From Winogradskya consettensis (GTDB lineage Bacteria > Actinomycetota > Actinomycetes > Mycobacteriales > Micromonosporaceae): a DNA stretch of 64,000 nt. Position 1 is the first letter of the stretch. Each line of letters starts with the position of its first letter. Below are positions 3,300 to 54,108 of the stretch, one piece after another. Both the position numbers and the translations under genes were made by a program. Below the pieces are notes generated by a model that was given only the letters and a program-made list of their open reading frames with translations, was not told the origin of the DNA and ran no database searches. Where the stretch lies: the NCBI RefSeq assembly GCF_018332715.1, contig NZ_BOQP01000052.1, positions 124,001 to 188,000 of the forward strand, written 5' to 3'.

Positions 3300-5681
3300 G
3301 TGCGCAAGGTAGTCGTGGGACTGCTGGGCGCCGCGATGGTGACCAGTGTCGGGATCTCGCTCCCGACCGTCGCCAACGCTGCTCCACCTGCCGATCCGGC
3401 ACCGGCCAGTCAGGCCGGCACCGCCACCGTCGACGACATCCCCAACCCGTTCAACGACAAGACCCGGGCGCTGCGCCAGCAGGCCATCACCGATGTGCTC
3501 ACCGGCCGCGCCAAGCCGATCGAGCGCAACGGCAGCACGGTGGTCAAGGTCGGCAAGACCCAGGGCGTGTCAGCGCTCAACAAGACGGCGACCACGAACG
3601 ACGACGGCGTCGACCAGTACGTCGAACTCGAGCGTGAGAACACCGACCGGATCTTCGTGATCCTCGCGGAGTTCGGCAACGACCGGCACCCCAGCTACCC
3701 CGACGTGGACAGCGACCCGGCGACCGCCGGCCCCGCGACGTTCGAGGGTCCGCTGCACAACTCGATCCCGGAGCCCGACCGCGGCGTGGACAACTCCACG
3801 ATCTGGCGGTCCGACTACAGCTCCGACTACTTCCGCAACCTCTACTTCGGCGACGGTGCGGGCACCGAGTCGCTGAAGACCTATATGCAGACGCAGTCGT
3901 CCGGCCGCTACAGCGTCGACGGCGAGGTCACCGACTGGGTCAAGGTCAAGTACAACGAGGCCCGGTACGGTCGCGACCTCTGCGGCAGCCACGTGTGCAG
4001 CAACGTCCAGCAGCTCGTCCGTGACGCCGCGAACCAGTGGGTCATCGACCAGCGGGCCGCCGGGCGTACCGAGGATCAGATCGTCGCGGACCTGCAGTCG
4101 TTCGACCAGCACGACCGGTACGACTACGACAACGACGGCGACTTCAACGAGCCGGACGGCTACATCGACCACTTCCAGATCGTGCACGCCGGTGGCGACC
4201 AGGCCGACGGTGACCCGCAGCAGGGTGAGGACGCCATCTGGAGCCACCGCTCCTATGTGAGCTCGGGCGACGCCGGCTCCACCGGCCCGTCGGGCAACCT
4301 GCGCGGCGGCACCCAGGTCGGCGACACCGGCCTCTGGATCGGTGACTACACGATGCAGCCGGAGAACGGTGGCCTCGCCGTCTTCGCCCACGAGTACACG
4401 CACGACCTCACGCTGCCGGACGACTACGACACCACCGGCGGCGGCGACAACGCCAACGAGTACTGGACGCTGATGGCGCAGAACCGCCTCAGTGCCACGG
4501 GCGACCAGGGCATCGGCACCCGCCCGGGCGACATGGGGGCGTGGAACAAGCTCCAGCTCGGCTGGCTCGACTACGAGGTCCTGGTCAAGGGTCAGCAGAA
4601 GACCCTCGAGCTCGGCCCGGAGGAGTACAACACCGCCAAGGCGCAGGCCGCGGTCGTGGTGCTCCCCGACAAGCAGGTCGTCACACCGCTGGGCGCACCG
4701 TACGCCGGAACCAAGCAGTACTTCTCCGGCAACGCGGACGACCTCGAGACCGCGCTGACCAAGGACGTCGACCTCACCGGTAAGGCCACCGGCTCGGTCA
4801 CGCTCAAGGGCCGCTACGCCATCGAGGTCGACTACGACTACCTCTACTTCGAGGCGTCGACCGACAACGGCAGCACCTGGACCCGGCTCAACGGCACGGT
4901 CAACGGCGCCGCCTTCCCGACCGACGGCAGTGGCAACCCGGCGCTGACCGGCAGCACCGGTGGCGCCTGGGCGGACATCGCTGTGCCGCTCAACGCGTAC
5001 GCGGGCCAGAAGGTCAAGTTCCGCCTGCACTACCTGACCGACGGCGGCGTCTCCGAGGGCGGGTTCTTCGGCGACAACCTGACGGTCACCACCGACGGCA
5101 CCGTGGTGTCGACGGACGGCGCTGAGACCACCCCGACCTGGACCCCCGCGGGCTTCAGCGTCGTCGGTTCCTCGACCAGCGCGGCGTACGACAACTTCTA
5201 CATCGTCGGCAACCGCTCGTACGTCGGCTACGACCAGTACCTCAAGACGGGCCCGTACTTCTTCGGCTACCCGGCGAAGCCCGACTTCGTGGATCACTTC
5301 TCGTACCAGCAGGGCGTGCTGATCTCGTACTGGGACACCTCGGTCTCGGACAACAACGTCAGCACCCACCCCGGCACCGGCCGCAACCTGTACGTCGACG
5401 CGCACCCGGAGCCGGTCTACAACCTGGAGGGTGTGCCGTGGCGCGCCCGGGTGCAGATCTACGACGCACCATTCGGGTTGAAGAAGGCCGATTCGTTCAC
5501 GCTGCACATCAACGGCAAGGCCAGCTACATCCGTGGCCAGGCCGCGCAACCGACGTTCGATGACACCCAGAAGTACTTCTACGACGAGACCCCGGCCGCA
5601 GGCGTCAAGCTGCCCGCCGCCGGCGTCAAGATCCAGGTCACCGCACAGTCCGGCACCTCGGCGACGGTGAAGTTCAGCTAA
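3300..5681 (+). CDS. Secreted immune inhibitor A-like metalloprotease (M6 family), copy 1
   Basis: The protein has 793 residues and starts at the GTG at 3300 behind a strong GGAGGTAAC. A Sec signal peptide (MRKVVVGLLGAAM...) has a likely cleavage after AxA at residues 25-27, followed by a propeptide-like region. The zinc motif HEYTHDL starts at residue 364 and continues LPDDYD, matching the M6 pattern HExxHxLxLPDxYD of bacillary InhA. The glycine usual after HEY is Thr here, and a second Gly of the motif is also Thr. An acidic patch (DYDNDGDFNEPDGY) before it may bind calcium. The C-terminal half resembles the InhA beta-rich domains. It should be exported and degrade extracellular proteins. 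A second copy follows directly, pointing to tandem duplication. Confidence 0.9.
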   Translation: MRKVVVGLLGAAMVTSVGISLPTVANAAPPADPAPASQAGTATVDDIPNPFNDKTRALRQQAITDVLTGRAKPIERNGSTVVKVGKTQGVSALNKTATTNDDGVDQYVELERENTDRIFVILAEFGNDRHPSYPDVDSDPATAGPATFEGPLHNSIPEPDRGVDNSTIWRSDYSSDYFRNLYFGDGAGTESLKTYMQTQSSGRYSVDGEVTDWVKVKYNEARYGRDLCGSHVCSNVQQLVRDAANQWVIDQRAAGRTEDQIVADLQSFDQHDRYDYDNDGDFNEPDGYIDHFQIVHAGGDQADGDPQQGEDAIWSHRSYVSSGDAGSTGPSGNLRGGTQVGDTGLWIGDYTMQPENGGLAVFAHEYTHDLTLPDDYDTTGGGDNANEYWTLMAQNRLSATGDQGIGTRPGDMGAWNKLQLGWLDYEVLVKGQQKTLELGPEEYNTAKAQAAVVVLPDKQVVTPLGAPYAGTKQYFSGNADDLETALTKDVDLTGKATGSVTLKGRYAIEVDYDYLYFEASTDNGSTWTRLNGTVNGAAFPTDGSGNPALTGSTGGAWADIAVPLNAYAGQKVKFRLHYLTDGGVSEGGFFGDNLTVTTDGTVVSTDGAETTPTWTPAGFSVVGSSTSAAYDNFYIVGNRSYVGYDQYLKTGPYFFGYPAKPDFVDHFSYQQGVLISYWDTSVSDNNVSTHPGTGRNLYVDAHPEPVYNLEGVPWRARVQIYDAPFGLKKADSFTLHINGKASYIRGQAAQPTFDDTQKYFYDETPAAGVKLPAAGVKIQVTAQSGTSATVKFS

Positions 5682-8256: not shown

Positions 8257-8271
8257 TCTCTCGCGTCGGCT

Positions 8272-8313
8272 GAGCTGCCCGGGGACCTTCTGGTCCCCGG
8301 GCAGCTCTGTTTT
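8272..8313 (+). terminator. Strong terminator after second M6-like gene
   Basis: Positions 8272-8287 and 8292-8307 form a perfect 16-bp GC-rich stem with loop TTCT, followed by TGTTTT. It is one of the clearest intrinsic terminators in the window. Confidence 0.9.
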
Positions 8314-47089: not shown

Positions 47090-47983
47090 ATGCCGGTCGA
47101 CCCGGGCGGACGCTGGTTCGAGGGCGGTAGCGGCCCGATCCGCATCGACGGTGGCATCGCCGTGCGGGCCCAGCGCGGCAAGATCGGCTCCCAGTGGTGG
47201 TCGCGGCGCTTCGTCGACCTGCTCGAGAGCATCTGCCAGCCGGGACGACTCGGGCGCGGCCGGGCGTACGCGCGCAAGGGACAGGTCATCGACTTCGAGC
47301 TGACCCCGGGCCGGGTGTTCGGGCGGGTTCAGGGCTCGCGGCCGGACCCGTACGAGGTCACCATCACGATCCCCGCCTTCGACGACGAGCAGTGGGCCCA
47401 GCTCCTCGAAGCCCTCGGCGCCCAGGCGTTGTACCGCGCGGCGTTGCTGGCCGGCGACATGCCCCACGAGATCGTCGACGTGTTCGACGCCCACGGCATG
47501 CCGCTGTTCCCGCCCGACCTCGGCATGCACTGCAACTGCCCGGACTGGGGCGTGCCGTGCAAGCATGCGTCGGCGGTGCTCTACGTGCTGGCCGAGGCGT
47601 TCGACGACGATCCGTTCCTGGTCCTGGCCTGGCGGGGCCGCGACCGCGACGGCGTCCTGACCGCACTGCGCGGCCTGCCCGAACCGGAGGACGAGGTCGA
47701 CCCGCTCGCGGTCGACGACGAGCCCCTCGAATCGCGCCTCGGCGACTTCTACTCTCCGGCGTTGTCACTGGGCCGCCTGCGTGAACGCCCATCCCGGACC
47801 ACCACGCCCCCGGAGCTGTTGCTGCGGGTTCTCGACGCACCGCCGATCCGGGTACGCGCGATTCCCCTGGTCGATGTCCTGCGCCCCGCATACCGCGACC
47901 TGGCCGCCGCCGATTCCACCGCACCCGACCCCACTGCACCGACCCCGCCTGACCCCGGTCTCGCCTCGCCCGACCCCGGCTGA
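47090..47983 (+). CDS. SWIM zinc finger protein
   Basis: The protein has 297 residues. The SWIM motif CxCx(n)CxH is MHCNCPDWGVPCKHASAVLY at about residues 146-165. The N-terminus contains GSQWWSRRFVDLLES, frequent in SWIM proteins next to SNF2 helicases. SWIM domains bind DNA or proteins. The C-terminus ends in Pro/Asp-rich repeats (ADSTAPDPTAPTPPDPGLAS), which reflect DNA repeats continuing past the stop codon. It is coupled to the helicase gene through the minigene and probably acts with it on DNA. Confidence 0.92.
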   Translation: MPVDPGGRWFEGGSGPIRIDGGIAVRAQRGKIGSQWWSRRFVDLLESICQPGRLGRGRAYARKGQVIDFELTPGRVFGRVQGSRPDPYEVTITIPAFDDEQWAQLLEALGAQALYRAALLAGDMPHEIVDVFDAHGMPLFPPDLGMHCNCPDWGVPCKHASAVLYVLAEAFDDDPFLVLAWRGRDRDGVLTALRGLPEPEDEVDPLAVDDEPLESRLGDFYSPALSLGRLRERPSRTTTPPELLLRVLDAPPIRVRAIPLVDVLRPAYRDLAAADSTAPDPTAPTPPDPGLASPDPG

Positions 47984-48009
47984 CTCGGGTCTCGCCTCGC
48001 CCGACCCCG
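47957..48009. repeat. 22-bp direct repeat flanking the SWIM gene stop
   Basis: GGTCTCGCCTCGCCCGACCCCG occurs at 47957-47978 and 47988-48009, either side of the TGA stop at 47981-47983. A shorter partial copy follows. The same theme of tandem duplication at a gene end is seen at nuoN and the SNF2 gene. Confidence 0.9.
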
Positions 48010-48103
48010 CCTCGCCCGGTCTCTCGGACCCGGTCGCGCTTCGCCAACTGCCTAGACATCAGTTCTTGTCTATTGACACGGAGTCTTAACAGTTCGATCC
48101 TGT

Positions 48104-48115
48104 GAGAGCGCTCTC
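48104..48115. promoter_or_regulatory. LacI-type operator upstream of the GH64 gene
   Basis: GAGAGCGCTCTC is a perfect 12-bp palindrome 35 bp before the start codon. It resembles sugar-responsive LacI-family operators of actinomycetes such as the CebR box TGGGAGCGCTCCCA. A TTGACA (48073-48078) upstream could be the -35 box; the -10 box is not clear. Repression lifted by a glucan breakdown product is a reasonable inference. Confidence 0.55.
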
Positions 48116-48150
48116 CCCCTTGCGCGCACCCTCATCCCCGAGGAGTCTCC

Positions 48151-49755
48151 GTGCGTACAAAAAGAAGGCTCTTGCAGGCCGTCGCCGCCCTCGCGATGAC
48201 CGTCCCAGCGGCCGTCACCGCCCTCTCATCCCCCGCCCAGGCAATCGGCCCCGCCCTCCTGCCGGTTACCGTCACCAACAACACCGGCCGCGGCGAAGCG
48301 ACCTACCTCTACGTCATCGGCACCAACCTCAGCACCGGCCGCCTCGGATACGTCAACCAGGGCGGCACGTTCACGGCATGGCCCGCCGGGCAGATCCCAC
48401 CCTCCCCGGCACCGGACGTGGCAATCGGCGGCCCCGGAAACGGCGGATCGACCACGGTGCAGTTCCCGCGCGGATTCTCCGGCCGGCTCTACTTCTCCTT
48501 CGGCACCAAACTGAAGCTGTTCCTCACCCCGGACGGATTCGTGCAACCGGCACCCTGGTCATCGGGAGACGCCAACCACGACATCCTGTTCGACTGGAGC
48601 GAGTTCACCTACAACGACGGCGGCCTCTGGCTCAACAGCACCCAGGTCGACATGCTCTCCGTCCCCCACGCCGTCTCCGTGACCGGCGCAAACGGCGCCA
48701 CCTCCCGCGAGGGCGAACTGGTCAGCGACGGCCGCAACAAGGTCTTCAACGCGATCAAGGCCCAATCCGGCTGGGCGAACACCGTCTACACCCGCGCCGA
48801 CGGCACCGTCCTGCGCGCCCTCGCACCCGGAAAAGCAGCCGGTGCGGGCCAGTTCAGCACCACTTATTACGACTCGTACATCACTTCGGCATGGAACGCC
48901 TACACCAGTAAAACTCTCACGGTGGTGCCGTTCGGCGACCAGCCCAACACCAAATACTTCGGGCGTACGTCCGGCAACGTCATGACCTTCACCAACACCT
49001 CCGGCCAGACGGTCACCTCGTTCAACAAGCCGTCCTCATCCTCGGTATGGGGCTGCGACGGCGACCTGTTCGCCCCGAACGACCTCGTCGTCGGCCCGAT
49101 CGCCCGAACCCTCTGCGCCGCCCTCAACCGCGGCACCCTCGGCACGATCGACACCCAGCCGTCCACCAACGCGGCGCAGTTCTACCAGAACAACCCCGCG
49201 AACCAGTACGGCAAAATCATCCACCAGAACATGGTCGACGGTAAGGCCTACGCTTTCGCCTTCGACGACGTCGGCAACTTCGAATCCCTCGTCCACGACG
49301 GCGACCCCCGCTCCGCCGCCATCACCCTCACCCCCTTCGGCGCCGGCGGCGGCACCACCCCGCCCCCCAGCAGCGGCGGCGTCCCGGTCATCAACGACTG
49401 GAACGGCAAATGCGTCGACGTCCCCAACGGCAGCTTCGTCGACAGCGCACCCCTGCAGATGTGGACCTGCAACGGGTCTGCCGCCCAGGGCTGGAACTTC
49501 ACCGGCGGGACTGTTCAGGCCGGGGGCAAGTGCATGGATGTTGCTGCGGGGTCGGTTGCCAATGGGGCGGCTATTCAGCTCTACAGCTGCAATGGCACCG
49601 GGGCTCAGCAGTTCGTTCTGTCCTCGGCGGGGGATCTGGTCAATGTCGCTGCTAACAAGTGCATCGATGTCAAGGACTGGAATGCTGCTGATGGGGCTCG
49701 GTTGCAGTTGTGGGACTGTGCTGGGACTGCTAATCAGAAGTGGCATAAAGGCTGA
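48151..49755 (+). CDS. Secreted GH64 beta-1,3-glucanase with ricin-type carbohydrate-binding domain
   Basis: The protein has 534 residues. A signal peptide ends at PAQA (28-31). The catalytic part (about 35-400) matches family GH64 laminaripentaose-producing glucanases, for example LPVTVTNNTGRGEATYLYVI and the FDWSEFTYND region. A Gly/Thr/Pro linker leads to a C-terminal ricin B/CBM13 trefoil (about 412-534) with three QxW-like repeats (QGWNF, QQFVL, QKWHKG). It should degrade fungal or algal beta-1,3-glucan outside the cell. Codon use changes abruptly near 49480 from C-ending to G/T-ending. Confidence 0.92.
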   Translation: MRTKRRLLQAVAALAMTVPAAVTALSSPAQAIGPALLPVTVTNNTGRGEATYLYVIGTNLSTGRLGYVNQGGTFTAWPAGQIPPSPAPDVAIGGPGNGGSTTVQFPRGFSGRLYFSFGTKLKLFLTPDGFVQPAPWSSGDANHDILFDWSEFTYNDGGLWLNSTQVDMLSVPHAVSVTGANGATSREGELVSDGRNKVFNAIKAQSGWANTVYTRADGTVLRALAPGKAAGAGQFSTTYYDSYITSAWNAYTSKTLTVVPFGDQPNTKYFGRTSGNVMTFTNTSGQTVTSFNKPSSSSVWGCDGDLFAPNDLVVGPIARTLCAALNRGTLGTIDTQPSTNAAQFYQNNPANQYGKIIHQNMVDGKAYAFAFDDVGNFESLVHDGDPRSAAITLTPFGAGGGTTPPPSSGGVPVINDWNGKCVDVPNGSFVDSAPLQMWTCNGSAAQGWNFTGGTVQAGGKCMDVAAGSVANGAAIQLYSCNGTGAQQFVLSSAGDLVNVAANKCIDVKDWNAADGARLQLWDCAGTANQKWHKG

Positions 49756-49774
49756 TTGTTTCTCGCTGGTGGAC

Positions 49775-49849
49775 GGGTGAGGGCCGGGGTCCCCAAGACA
49801 GGCTTCAAGGGCGTTTTTATGCCTGTCTTGGGAACCCCGGCCCTCACCC
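49775..49849. terminator. Left hairpin of the inverted element; GH64 terminator
   Basis: Two 29-bp arms (49775-49803, 49821-49849) with one mismatch enclose a 17-nt loop TTCAAGGGCGTTTTTAT. It lies 20 bp after the GH64 stop codon and can act as its terminator. The same structure, inverted, is at 50631-50705. Confidence 0.85.
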
Positions 49850-50344
49850 TTGCATGCGAGCCATTTCTGCTTTGACGTTGGTTACTGGGCGCTGGGTGCA
49901 CGGCTGGGCTCTGCGTTCACCTTCTGCTTCTTGGTCTGGCTGCCGCGCTGGGGTTGGCGTCACTGCAGGCCTGGCAGCAGGCCCGGCTGAGTGGTGGGTC
50001 TTGCGACGCACCTCGCCGCTTCAGGTAAAGCATTCGGCGCACCCGCCACTGCCCCGCACGCGCCATTGACCAAACCCCGGGACAACTCACTGTGGGTTGC
50101 TCGTGCCCATGCCTTCGAAATCACGCGACCAACTCGCCGTGGACCACCCCACGCCCTCCACGGCAATGACGCGCCCACCCCAAAGCCTCACCGCCCAGTA
50201 CCCCCGGCCCTCCCCCACACCCAAACACAAGCCCCACCTCAAAATTGACCGCCAACCCAAACCCCATACCTGATCGACAAAGAACCCCAAACCCACAACG
50301 AGCCCACACAAAGCCGCCACCAAAGAACCCAGAACCACGGCGTC

Positions 50345-50428
50345 CACGCGCGAGGCTGTCAACGGAGAGCACAGGACCACGGTGGGCACGCGCGAGGCTG
50401 TCAACGGAGAGCGCAGAACCATGATGGG
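50345..50428. repeat. 42-bp tandem repeat, 2 copies
   Basis: Units at 50345-50386 and 50387-50428 begin CACGCGCGAGGCTGTCAACG and differ at four positions. A decayed partial copy precedes them. They lie at the inner edge of the right arm of the inverted element. Confidence 0.9.
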
Positions 50429-50630
50429 CGGCGGCGGAGCGGTTTGCGGACTGCGCGACCGGCGAGGTACGTCGCGAGACCCACCACCCAGCTCGGCCCG
50501 CTGGCAGCCACCAAGGCTAGGCCGACCAAAGCGCGGCAGCCAGACCACAAAGCACGAGGTGGACGCGGAGGCCAAGCCATGCATCCAGAGCTCGGTGACC
50601 AATATCTGCGAGCGAGAGGCGTAGCGGCAA

Positions 50631-50705
50631 GGGTGGGGGCCTGGGTGGCCAAGACAGGCATAAAAACGCCCTTAAAGCCTGTCTTGGCCACCCAGGCCCC
50701 CACCC
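50631..50705. terminator. Right hairpin of the inverted element
   Basis: Perfect 29-bp arms (50631-50659, 50677-50705) enclose the loop ATAAAAACGCCCTTAAA, which is the reverse complement of the left loop at 16 of 17 positions. Arm differences from the left copy are compensated on the opposite arm. Confidence 0.9.
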
Positions 50706-50755
50706 GTCCACCGCAACAATCCCACCCTCCAGCACCACGTCATAGGCTCGAAGAC

Positions 50756-51712
50756 ATGAGCGAAATGACCCACCGCCGCCTAGGCGCATCCGGCCTGGTA
50801 GTCAGCACAATCGGCCTAGGCTGCAACAACTTCGGCCGCAAGCTGGACCTGGACGGCACCCAGGAAGTAGTAGACGCGGCACTGGACGCGGGAATCACGC
50901 TGTTCGACACAGCTGACATCTACGGCACCCCGCACGGCGCTTCGGAAGAGCTGTTGGGGCAGGCGTTGAAGGGGCGCCGGGACCAGGTGGTGCTGGCGAC
51001 GAAGTTCGGGATGGACATGGGGGGTATGAACGGCGCGGACCGGGGGGCTCGGGGGGCTCGGAGTTACATCGTACGGGCGGTGGAGGCTTCGTTGCGGCGG
51101 TTGGAGACGGATTACATCGATTTGTACCAGATGCATCAGCCGGATGAGGCGACTCCGATCGATGAGACGCTGGCGGCGCTCGATGATCTGGTGCGGGCCG
51201 GGAAGGTTCGGTATCTGGGGAATTCGAATTTTGCCGGGTGGCAGATCGCTGATGCTGACTGGACGGCGCGGGCTGATGGGCGGACTCCGTTTGTGAGTGC
51301 GCAGAATCAGTACAGCTTGTTGAACCGGCAGGTGGAGGATGAGGTCGCGCCTGCTTGCGAGCGGTTCGGGTTGGGGCTTCTGCCGTTCTTCCCGCTCGAT
51401 AGTGGACTGTTGAGCGGTAAGTACCGGCGGGGGCAGAAGCCGGCTGCGGGGACGCGGCTGGCGACCGAGCGGCATCAGCGTTGGTGGGATGGTGCTGACT
51501 GGGACAGGATTGAGGCGCTCACCGAGTTCGGGCGGGAGCGGGGCCATTCCCTGCTGGATGTGGCCATTGCGGGGCTTGCCGCTCAGCCTGCCGTCAGCAG
51601 TGTCATCGCGGGGGCGACTTCGGCTTCGCAGGTGCAGCAGAATGCCGCCGCGGGTGCCTGGCAGTTGACCGCGGATGATCTCGCGGAGCTGTCCCGGGTT
51701 CTGGACGCATAG
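50756..51712 (+). CDS. Aldo/keto reductase
   Basis: The protein is 318 residues from the ATG at 50756 (MSEMTHRRLGASGLVVSTIG). The catalytic tetrad is Asp51, Tyr56, Lys83 and His127 (FDTADIYG, ATKFG, QMHQPD). The C-terminal NADPH-binding segment SSVIAGATSASQVQQNAAA is present. It belongs to the AKR group related to YghZ/L-glyceraldehyde-3-phosphate reductases; substrate unknown. The ribosome site is weak. Composition shifts from C-rich to G/T-rich on the coding strand about 200 bp into the gene. The IMPase-like gene follows after 2 bp, so the two form an operon. Confidence 0.93.
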   Translation: MSEMTHRRLGASGLVVSTIGLGCNNFGRKLDLDGTQEVVDAALDAGITLFDTADIYGTPHGASEELLGQALKGRRDQVVLATKFGMDMGGMNGADRGARGARSYIVRAVEASLRRLETDYIDLYQMHQPDEATPIDETLAALDDLVRAGKVRYLGNSNFAGWQIADADWTARADGRTPFVSAQNQYSLLNRQVEDEVAPACERFGLGLLPFFPLDSGLLSGKYRRGQKPAAGTRLATERHQRWWDGADWDRIEALTEFGRERGHSLLDVAIAGLAAQPAVSSVIAGATSASQVQQNAAAGAWQLTADDLAELSRVLDA

Positions 51713-51714
51713 CG

Positions 51715-52509
51715 TTGGGCTCGGATCAGGAGCTTGTTGTTGCGGCGGCGGCTGCGGGGGCAGCGGTTGTGCGGGCTCGGTACGGCACGGAGATGGGCCG
51801 GGTCTCGAAGGCTGCGGGGGATTTTGCGACTGCCGCTGACCTGGAGGCCGAGCGGGTCATCGTCGACATGATTCGGGCTGCGCGGCCGTCCGATGGTGTT
51901 GTCGGTGAGGAGGGCGGACGGCAGGGCGGCGATCACGGGAATGGCCGAGAATGGCTTGTCGATCCGTTGTGCGGAACGCTGAATTACGCCGCGCGGACGA
52001 TGCTGGTCGGGGTCAATGTCGCGCTGCGGGTGGGTGGGCGGACCACGGTGGCGGCCTGCGCCGATCCGTTCAGCTCCGAGATCTTCTGGTCCGATCAGAC
52101 CCATGCCTGGGTACGCCGTGACGACCGCGACGAGCCCCTCACGCCGTCCCCGGCCTCGAATCTCGTGGACGTCAATCTGGACCCGCCGTTCCCGAACGAT
52201 CCCGCGTTCCGCGCCGTTTCGTTGCTCGCCGATCGCCGTTTCGTGGACCGGTTCCGGCCCCGGGTGGTCTCGTCGACGCTGGCGGTGGCGTGGGTCGCGG
52301 CGGGCCGGCGAGCCGCTTACGTGACCGACGGCCATCTACGCGACAGCGTGCATTTCGCCGCGGGCATCGCGCTGTGCGAAGCGGCCGGCTGCGTCGTCAC
52401 CGACATTCTCGGCGAACCGTTCCACGCCAGCTCTCGCGGTGGCTTGTTGGTGGCTGCCGATGCTGACACGCATGCGGCGCTTTTGATTCTCACCACTCCC
52501 GCAGAATGA
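51715..52509 (+). CDS. Inositol monophosphatase-like protein with altered metal ligands
   Basis: The protein is 264 residues from a TTG at 51715, 2 bp after the aldo/keto reductase stop. The family skeleton is clear: GDFATAADLEAE (36-46), GEEGG (64-68), WLVDPLCGTLNY (80-91) and HFAAGIALCEAAG (213-225). In active enzymes these read DPxDGTxNF and WDxAAG. Here the second Asp is Cys86 and the C-terminal Asp is His213, so two of the Mg-binding residues are lost. Catalysis of phosphate removal is doubtful; a regulatory or binding role is possible. Confidence 0.82.
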   Translation: MGSDQELVVAAAAAGAAVVRARYGTEMGRVSKAAGDFATAADLEAERVIVDMIRAARPSDGVVGEEGGRQGGDHGNGREWLVDPLCGTLNYAARTMLVGVNVALRVGGRTTVAACADPFSSEIFWSDQTHAWVRRDDRDEPLTPSPASNLVDVNLDPPFPNDPAFRAVSLLADRRFVDRFRPRVVSSTLAVAWVAAGRRAAYVTDGHLRDSVHFAAGIALCEAAGCVVTDILGEPFHASSRGGLLVAADADTHAALLILTTPAE

Positions 52510-52510
52510 A

Positions 52511-52559
52511 GGGCCCGGGGATCCGTTCTGGAGCGCTGGCTCCTTGGATCTCCGGGCCC
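52511..52559. terminator. Bidirectional terminator between convergent genes
   Basis: GGGCCCGGGGATCC pairs with GGATCTCCGGGCCC nearly throughout, and an inner GGAGC/GCTCC stem fills the loop. It starts 2 bp after the IMPase-like stop and lies 65 bp from the convergent surface-protein stop. Confidence 0.85.
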
Positions 52560-52623
52560 GGCCTCGGCGGGAGCGACGATCTGCACCCCCCACCGAGCTA
52601 CGACATCTGCATTTTGATTTTGC

Positions 52624-54108
52624 TCAGGCCACCGTCACGATTCGCCGGCGGCGGGCGACGTAGAACAGCACCCCACCTGCGAGGAGCAGTGCCGCACCGC
52701 CGCCTACGACGAAGCCGGTCGGGGCGCCGGTGACGGGAAGGCCGCCGCCCTCGCCGCCGGTGGAGAGCTCGACCTCGATGGCCGCGGTGTTGTTGGAGGC
52801 CTTGGTGTCCTGCGGGCCGGGTTCGATGGTGATGGAGCCCGGCTTGCTGGTGCCTTCGACCGTGCCGGAGAAGCTGAAGAACTGCTGCTCGCCCTTGTGG
52901 AGGCTTTCGAAGACGAGGCAGAGGTAGACGTGGTCGGCCGTCTTCTCGCAGCTGGGGTCGGTCTCGGTCGGGTCGATGCCGGCGGGGAGTTTGATCTCGG
53001 CGGTGGACAGCCAGCCCTGCATGATGCTCGCGGTCGCGGCCGGGCCGTCGTTGCGGATGCCGACCTTGATCGTGCGCTCGTCGCCGATGCCGCCGGTGAA
53101 GGTTGCGCCGAGGGCGACGCTGTCCGCCGGGTTCTTGCCGACGGTGATGAGGAACGAGGTGGCGTTGTCCCACTCGTTCAGCTCGTTCTCGTCGATGTCG
53201 TCGTTGTCGGCCAGGGCGCGGGCCTGGGCGAGCGGCTCGAGCTCGAGCTTGGTGCCGGCCGAGGTGGCTTCCGCTGCCTTGGCCGCCGAGTCGAGACCCA
53301 GCTCGTCGAGGTCGTTCAGGGCGAGGGCGAAGGCTCCCACGGCGTAGAGGCCCGGGCCGGGGGCGTCGGCGGCGACCTTGACCTTCATCGGTGTCCTGTC
53401 GGACAGCGTGAAGATCTGGTCACCCTCGATGGGCTGGTCGAAGAGGCAGACCGTGCCTTCGAGCTCGTCGACCTGCTCGCAGTTGGTGTACTTCGCCGGG
53501 AACGAGATGAAGTCGGCGCCGACCAGGACCACGCCGACGCCTTCCGCGGTCTTGTTGCCGGTGTTGCGGATCACGATCGGGATATCGGCGCTCTTGCCGG
53601 GCGCCAGCTTCATGTCCTTGATCGGGCTCAGCTCGAGGTCGATGCCGGTGCGGGTCGAGATGATCTGCACCTTGGCGGCCGCAGCCAGCGTGCCGGTCGA
53701 GTCCTTCGCCACGATTGTCAGCGTCTCGCCGAGTTTCGGCAGGGCGGCGGTCGGGCTGACGGTGAAGCTGAACTTCACCGCGGTGCCGTTCGCGTCGAGG
53801 TCACCGACCGGGCAGACGTTGTCGGTGCAGTCCTTCGGGGTGCTGAGGCCGATGCTCGCCGGGACCGGGTCGGCGAAGGACACGGTGACGCCCTTCGCCT
53901 TCTCCTCACCGATGTAGACGAGGTCGGCCTCGATCGTCTTCGACTTGCCGTCGACCGCGACGACCCGCTCGGGGACGTTGAGGAACATGCCGCCCGGGTC
54001 CGCCGGGATCGGGTCGTCGGCATAGGCGGGCAGGCCGGCCCCGGCGGTCGCCAGGGTGACGAGGACGAGGGGCAGCGCGAACCGACCCAACAAGCTGTGC
54101 AGACGCAT
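52624..54108 (-). CDS. LPXTG-type surface protein with CARDB/DUF11-like repeats
   Basis: The protein is 494 residues from the ATG at 54108 (GTG 54114 would add two). A signal peptide ends near AYA-DDP (about residue 30). Three or so beta-sandwich modules rich in N, T, D and G follow (for example VIRNTGNKTAEGVGVVLVG), as in CARDB or DUF11 adhesin-type domains. The C-terminus has LPVTG, a hydrophobic helix and RRRR, a complete sortase sorting signal. It should be anchored to peptidoglycan by a sortase, which is not encoded in this window. Function may be structural or adhesive. Confidence 0.85.
   Translation of the reverse strand: MRLHSLLGRFALPLVLVTLATAGAGLPAYADDPIPADPGGMFLNVPERVVAVDGKSKTIEADLVYIGEEKAKGVTVSFADPVPASIGLSTPKDCTDNVCPVGDLDANGTAVKFSFTVSPTAALPKLGETLTIVAKDSTGTLAAAAKVQIISTRTGIDLELSPIKDMKLAPGKSADIPIVIRNTGNKTAEGVGVVLVGADFISFPAKYTNCEQVDELEGTVCLFDQPIEGDQIFTLSDRTPMKVKVAADAPGPGLYAVGAFALALNDLDELGLDSAAKAAEATSAGTKLELEPLAQARALADNDDIDENELNEWDNATSFLITVGKNPADSVALGATFTGGIGDERTIKVGIRNDGPAATASIMQGWLSTAEIKLPAGIDPTETDPSCEKTADHVYLCLVFESLHKGEQQFFSFSGTVEGTSKPGSITIEPGPQDTKASNNTAAIEVELSTGGEGGGLPVTGAPTGFVVGGGAALLLAGGVLFYVARRRRIVTVA

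Follow-up and report, generated by a model that had tools for sequence, protein, structure and literature searches.

The two long hairpins between a glucanase gene and an aldo/keto reductase gene of Winogradskya consettensis (genome G000) are the outer ends of one inserted element, E1. This element is probably a copy of a genus-wide, dispersed, non-autonomous and apparently non-coding mobile family of REP/BIME-like character that supplies long terminator hairpins at gene 3′ ends. What we observed is a family whose units share one anatomy, have a covarying stem and lie mostly at gene 3′ ends; two loci exist both with and without an element, and in most of the genomes sampled the copies cluster by genome. 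Throughout, the window is the whole analysed stretch of 64,000 nucleotides, and positions are those of the window unless a locus is named.

The two hairpins are the ends of one element

The initial annotation described inverted hairpin copies at 49775-49849 and 50631-50705 with 29-position arms and 17-nt loops, and we recovered them as described; the loops are alike at 16 of 17 positions after reverse complementing, and the whole hairpins are identical at 66 of 75 positions. Its statement that differences between the arms are compensated holds for positions 6, 12 and 18, whereas the fourth difference, at position 17, is uncompensated, reading C-A on the forward and G-U on the reverse strand of hairpin 1. 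The 96 nt around hairpin 1 gave a folding energy of -69.7 kcal/mol (z -8.4) and the hairpin 2 stretch one of -79.0 (z -13.0), with 0 of 200 shuffles as good in either case; neither fold is a product of chance. A loop-spaced pattern of 9-bp arms, with up to 3 mismatches allowed, occurred in the window at just these two sites against 0.02 expected. The stem scan found one other window stem of at least 16 bp, an ordinary terminator-like hairpin at 8270-8309 followed by TTTT.

Inverted similarity extends inward beyond the hairpins (54 nt at 81% and 48 nt at 85% complementarity), which had been overlooked earlier. Hairpins 1 and 2 are the outer ends of a single inserted element of about 980 bp, not independent structures. 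E1 consists of an inverted pair of units around a variable centre and lies between the GH64/ricin-B gene, whose stop codon is 19 nt from hairpin 1, and the aldo/keto reductase gene. The features are as follows (covariance model R1 is described below).

48151..49755, forward: upstream gene, GH64 beta-1,3-glucanase with ricin-B lectin domain (open reading frame; Pfam PF16483, E 5.8e-107; PF00652, E 8.8e-25)
49756..50737, no strand: whole E1 insertion, about 980 bp, limits approximate (absent in G017, G006, G001 and G050, which have short intergenic DNA instead)
49759..50023, forward: unit E1a, left arm of E1, 265 nt, hairpin outermost (R1 match of 215.2 bits; arm alignments)
49775..49849, forward: hairpin 1, stem 49775-49803 with 49821-49849, loop 49804-49820, one C-A mismatch
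49933..49950, forward: motif M2 in E1a (GGTCTGGCTGCCGCGCTG), the best conserved block of the unit (arm alignments; conservation over 75 arms)
49974..50018, forward: motif M3 in E1a (GCAGCAGGCC...GCGACGCACCTCGCCG) (arm alignments; conservation blocks 0.68 to 0.83)
50024..50454, no strand: E1 centre, variable between loci, with a short imperfect tandem duplication (read from the sequence)
50455..50720, reverse: unit E1b, right arm of E1, 266 nt, inverted relative to E1a (R1 match of 203.5 bits)
50460..50505, reverse: motif M3 in E1b (sequence reading and arm alignment)
50529..50546, reverse: motif M2 in E1b (sequence reading and arm alignment)
50631..50705, reverse: hairpin 2, 29 perfect pairs, 17-nt loop
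50756..51712, forward: downstream gene, aldo/keto reductase (Pfam PF00248, E 1.1e-71)

The imperfect tandem duplication of the centre covers 50328-50424 with the core GCGCGAGGCTGTCAACGGAGAGC, and a similar repeat is present in the copy of the near relative G042.

A family of units dispersed through the genus

Arms aligned from G000 and G042 defined a unit of about 266 nt that runs from an outer flank through the hairpin to M2 and M3. The conserved outer flank approximates TTGCG.T.GGACGG, the stem has about 28-30 bp and the loop varies between clades. A unit may stand alone or be one of an inverted pair whose hairpins point outward, an orientation found in 17 of 17 two-arm loci counted (18 including locus L045); 40 single and 34 paired arms were present among the loci fetched, arm matches of fewer than 120 model positions being ignored in these arm counts and in the position counts below.

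A blast search with one arm gave matches in 19 of the 67 genomes of the genus, its own included. Model R1 was built from the 27 arms of alignment A2; the distant arms were aligned from 23 loci of L053-L079 (L062, L065, L070 and L078 left out), and A2 then dropped rows L068, L059 and L079. R1 matched 42 of the 67 genomes at E ≤ 0.001, with at least five matches in 23 and one match in 10. These match numbers are not copy numbers, because the best 29 candidates per genome were scored and hairpins seen again on the opposite strand were counted as well; the 10 matches in G000, for instance, comprise 7 arms and 3 reversed hairpins. Nearly all of the matches listed span model positions 1-266, and the single weak matches may be hairpins only. 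The initial annotation had proposed such a search and had allowed for the pair being the only copies; instead, there are many copies in relatives, and their stem covaries across species.

Among 101 genomes drawn from the order, own genome included, R1 matched three when the best 19 candidates per genome were scored under strict filters: the own genome plus, as weak matches, two genomes from a different genus of the same taxonomic family. The latter contain hairpin-only relatives (L180, L183 and L181), whose loop core GTCAGGCTTGAT is that of some units of G022, exactly in L180 and L183 and similarly in L181. L180 and L183 also carry GGTTGCGGTCAG ahead of the hairpin, as do several units at their inner end; unlike family units, the three have no profile arm match and a different downstream sequence.

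Stems of at least 16 bp numbered 57 in 328,459 bases from 41 sources, 40 of which had been picked because they hold family arms, and 54 of these stems lay in family arms or within 60 nt of them. The iterated motif TTGCGGT gave 1.69 hits per arm versus 0.95 in shuffles (largest of 50 shuffles 1.23); this is not pressed here, since the motif is missing from E1a. Distant blastn of the E1a unit against plasmids and phages returned no match to indicate such an origin. Altogether, these are scattered, seemingly mobile repeats of Actinoplanes-type soil bacteria that apparently form an undescribed family: titles and abstract openings, within the literature and terms covered, contained no published description.

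Four contig ends of the draft G000 genome (C56, C59, C64 and C70) fall inside family hairpins, and the family may therefore also disturb assemblies. Of these, C59 and C70 match the same stretch of contig C10 of G042 and appear to come from opposite sides of a single element. On C56, the centre of element E3 (L045, about 350-1890) holds extra DNA with broken transposase-like frames, presumably an IS630-type insertion, which the orthologous element of G042 does not have; the E3 centre of G042 contains a short tandem array of GAGCGCC-type repeats (L014, about 4733-4880).

Most units lie behind gene 3′ ends

The initial annotation had also suggested locating the copies relative to stop codons, and the units proved to lie mostly just behind gene 3′ ends, often between convergent genes. 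Outer ends faced a gene 3′ end in 62 of 74 cases (28 of 34 paired, 34 of 40 single), at a median distance of 21 nt for paired and 40.5 nt for single units and at most 586 nt. The 12 outer ends that did not face a 3′ end were judged, like all others, by a simple codon-based gene caller that misses some genes, the aldo/keto reductase gene of the window among them. The counted loci were chosen from the better matches, not at random, and the count omits L045, where the element is broken by an insert and the contig end. The inner ends of single units faced a 3′ end in 23 of 38 cases.

We suggest that units become inserted, or persist, immediately after stop codons, in many cases where two genes converge, and that the hairpin would end the transcripts of the adjacent gene, or of both genes in a convergent pair; copies elsewhere would be lost or never have formed. 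Termination of this sort would explain where copies are tolerated and why their pairing is kept. It would be of the U-less kind, because reading of the sequence revealed no T tract behind the hairpins; the T run sits in the loop. A terminator scan, which allows loops of 3-8 nt only, called neither hairpin 1 nor hairpin 2.

Covariation of the stem and conservation outside it

In the arms of the Winogradskya group (alignment A1), 93.4% of the stem cells pair and 10 of 29 pairs contain double changes, compared with 4.3 after shuffling. The covariation score of A1 was 0.170 versus 0.060 shuffled, with 0 of 500 shuffles as high and slid controls far lower; further pair types were not in excess (13 versus 11.4 shuffled, 98 of 500 as high). 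For the 27 arms of A2, double changes occurred in 13 of 17 counted pairs versus 9.5 shuffled (3 of 500) and the score reached 0.479 versus 0.158 (0 of 500 as high), figures that favour themselves since the structure was derived from the same alignment; related rows inflate the covariation scores in general.

When 75 arms were compared, the commonest base had an average share of 0.90 in the M2 block (15 nt, 49939-49953), 0.72-0.84 in the blocks of the stem, 0.68-0.83 in those of M3 and 0.64 in the loop. The loop is the less conserved block of the hairpin, common within clades and not family-wide. Reading of the alignments showed that, in some clades, many copies retain a T-T mismatch or a bulge close to the loop; pairing is thus not just driven towards a perfect stem.

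Covariation by itself is no proof of selection, since pairing can also be restored by quasi-palindrome correction or by gene conversion. Long stems with compensated differences are the expected product of quasi-palindrome correction, and a stem kept paired only by this mutational process during replication, free of selection, would agree with the homogenised arms of many elements and with a loop no better conserved than the stem. We nevertheless regard such an origin as rather unlikely: the mismatch or bulge near the loop, retained in many copies of some clades, means that correction is incomplete, and the location of the hairpin behind stop codons and the sequence conservation of M2 outside it speak against correction alone. 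Some constraint on the units is likely, since they persist genus-wide, carry conserved motifs outside the hairpin, M2 foremost, and lie behind stop codons. The earlier conclusion that the structure itself is selected therefore stands as far as real stem covariation and likely constraint are concerned, and goes too far in that covariation alone does not imply selection.

Filled and empty sites

At the E1 locus of G017, G006, G001 and G050, the same two genes follow each other in tandem with 13 to 64 nt between the matched blocks; a short, simple hairpin occupies the site in G017 and G006. Apart from those of G000 and G042, the loci fetched for the window locus, 28 in number, yielded no arm, and in many of them the two genes are arranged differently. 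The GH64 gene is oriented oppositely relative to the aldo/keto reductase gene in several relatives (L154, L155, L157, L158 and others), and hence the site has undergone rearrangement. At a second locus, L115 of G049, a unit lies between convergent genes whose stop codons in G102 are 3 nt apart. This unit was absent from the 29 relatives fetched (of 66), and a copy 96% identical to it is located elsewhere in G049. Judged from these sequences, gain of an element is the simpler reading of the filled and empty sites at the two loci, and loss in several lineages could still account for E1.

Six aligned pairs of non-orthologous copies revealed where similarity starts and stops: it begins abruptly just before the stem, and in five of the six pairs it ends within a few tens of bases after M3. 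Between L135 and L137 similarity continues past M3 into the centre; therefore, whole pairs can be copied. No target-site duplication was evident in the flanks, which have diverged. TTGCGG-like sequence is present at both ends of many units and is not locus-specific. M2, M3 and the unit ends might serve as recognition sites of a mobilising enzyme encoded elsewhere.

Orthologous copies and homogenisation

Elements E1 to E4 occupy the same places in G000 and G042 (E4 was seen as a single unit), and their flanking blocks are 85-98% identical between the two genomes. Among 75 arms covering at least 240 model positions, mean identity was 74.5% within and 61.2% between genomes (205 and 2570 comparisons), values that include kinship and the arms of one element. 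A tree of the same arms, made by a quick method with 27 of 72 inner branches weak, required 25 changes of genome label compared with a shuffled mean of 56.9 and a least possible number of 20. G000 and G042 behaved in the opposite way to the rest, all four G000 arms adjoining the orthologous G042 arm on the tree, i.e. clustering by locus.

In 11 of the 16 elements with two full arms these are 85-92% alike, and in five only 59-74%; the latter comprise three elements in G042, one in G009 and the one in the window, at 73.8%. The E1 arms are nearer to their orthologous G042 arms (82.7 and 85.7%) than to each other. At loci common to G059, G004 and G003 and to G035 and G033, identity is 81-93% for the flanking genes, 85-91% between the two arms of an element and only 59-76% between arms of different species. 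By these sequence comparisons, there is concerted change in some lineages, via gene conversion or replacement at the same site, and gene conversion has probably homogenised the arms in many elements.

Such shared loci, together with E1-E4 at matching places within well conserved flanks and the arm identities just given, would also suit resident host terminators or 3′-end structures that are inherited vertically, homogenised locally by gene conversion and not mobile. We consider this unlikely. Two loci have empty sites, and one unit was present in a single genome out of 30 examined; boundaries between unrelated flanks are abrupt, and termination does not need M2 and M3. To our knowledge, ordinary terminators do not form dispersed families with a common M2 and M3.

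Against the preferred reading, a mobile family supplying terminator hairpins, it also counts that gene conversion can make copies cluster by genome with no transposition involved, and that a simple terminator would have no need of M2 and M3. Tentatively, we also put forward as possible a mobile terminator, a genus-wide family of DNA elements each carrying a whole transcription stop signal with it. Such elements would enter gene 3′ ends in one fixed orientation by a route other than RAYT/Y1, possibly with the end of a transcript or a hairpin as target, and exchange between arms would keep the copies alike in many genomes.

Search for a mover and for coding or RNA roles

Movement of a REP/REPIN system by a RAYT-type Y1 transposase is strongly disfavoured and seems very improbable to us. 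In its favour, the units form hairpins and inverted dimers located behind genes and between convergent ones, as PMC3733652 describes for REPs. PF01797 (Y1_Tnp) was present in 7 of the 23 genomes with at least five model matches and in 13 of the 44 others, 30% in both; the copy-rich genomes G100, G002 and G104 carry it, whereas it is absent from the copy-rich G034, G027, G059, G004, G022 and G049. A unit was nearby in one of the 12 Y1 loci fetched, and the units are several times as long as REPs. With no association with copy-rich genomes, we rejected a RAYT/Y1 transposase as mover and treated the lone proximity, at L193, as chance. At that locus (contig C31 of G002) the Y1 gene lies about 180 nt from the inner end of the unit, in what by eye is an IS605-like arrangement.

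A protein-coding unit likewise seems unlikely: over 180 nt after the hairpin, no frame was open in more than 44 of 73 arms, though the most-open forward frame had 0.52 stops, versus 0.97 when each arm was shuffled once.

A gene for a structured non-coding RNA, with a transcript from M3 to the hairpin or the reverse, could be proposed from the conserved blocks outside the stem and the strong covariation within it. Several results make such a gene quite improbable. In the family arm alignments, predicted pairs outside the hairpin scarcely vary or scarcely covary, and RNA structure past the hairpin was accordingly rejected; a scan limited to sigma-70-like promoters found none in 47500-52700. Copy number varies and empty sites exist. 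Rfam gave 0 matches at gathering score in the window; its 58 sub-threshold matches included 56 to microRNA hairpin models.

Comparison with known systems

According to PMC3733652, GTAG and CGTC REPs are palindromic, occur as singletons and inverted dimers (BIME, REPIN) and are found chiefly 3′ of coding regions and between genes that converge or run in one direction; they measure 20-40 bp, with stems of 8-9 bp in the CGTC type. The present family is like REPs and REPINs in its inverted dimers with outward hairpins and differs in its unit of about 266 nt, with a stem of 28-30 bp and some 180 nt of partly conserved flank. As to the REP tag, no GTAG was seen in the family; the GACGG next to the stem is the complement of CGTC but stands on the opposite side. 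The same source names REP-like repeats of M. tuberculosis, and a term search of its main text gave no mention of Actinoplanes, Micromonospora or Actinobacteria. In contrast to REP/RAYT systems, the family has no association with a Y1 (TnpA-REP) gene.

ERIC is a MITE with palindromic folding, and the units resemble such elements in being short, intergenic, hairpin-folding and apparently without a gene of their own. The likeness extends to YPAL and Nezha, which are named in PMC3733652 as MITEs with palindromic folding. Unlike MITEs, the family showed no target-site duplication in its diverged flanks and no partner transposase, its arms occur both single and paired, and every unit carries a hairpin; it shares with MITEs a feature of mobility, the presence of filled and empty sites, seen at two loci. 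Actinomycetes possess long-hairpin terminators that have no U tract, and these are matched by a GC-rich hairpin just behind the stop codon. Compared with an intrinsic terminator, a stable hairpin follows shortly after the stop codon and the T tract is missing.

Interspersed palindromes are best described in proteobacteria. The family is classed with interspersed palindromic repeats, as REP-dimer-like or hairpin-MITE-like, and departs from REPs in size, tag and Y1 gene. It constitutes a large structured palindrome family in actinomycetes for which no described mover was found. Natural experiments, with the same locus having and not having the element and shared loci with replaced or homogenised units, bear on the question of whether mobile hairpins rewire gene ends.
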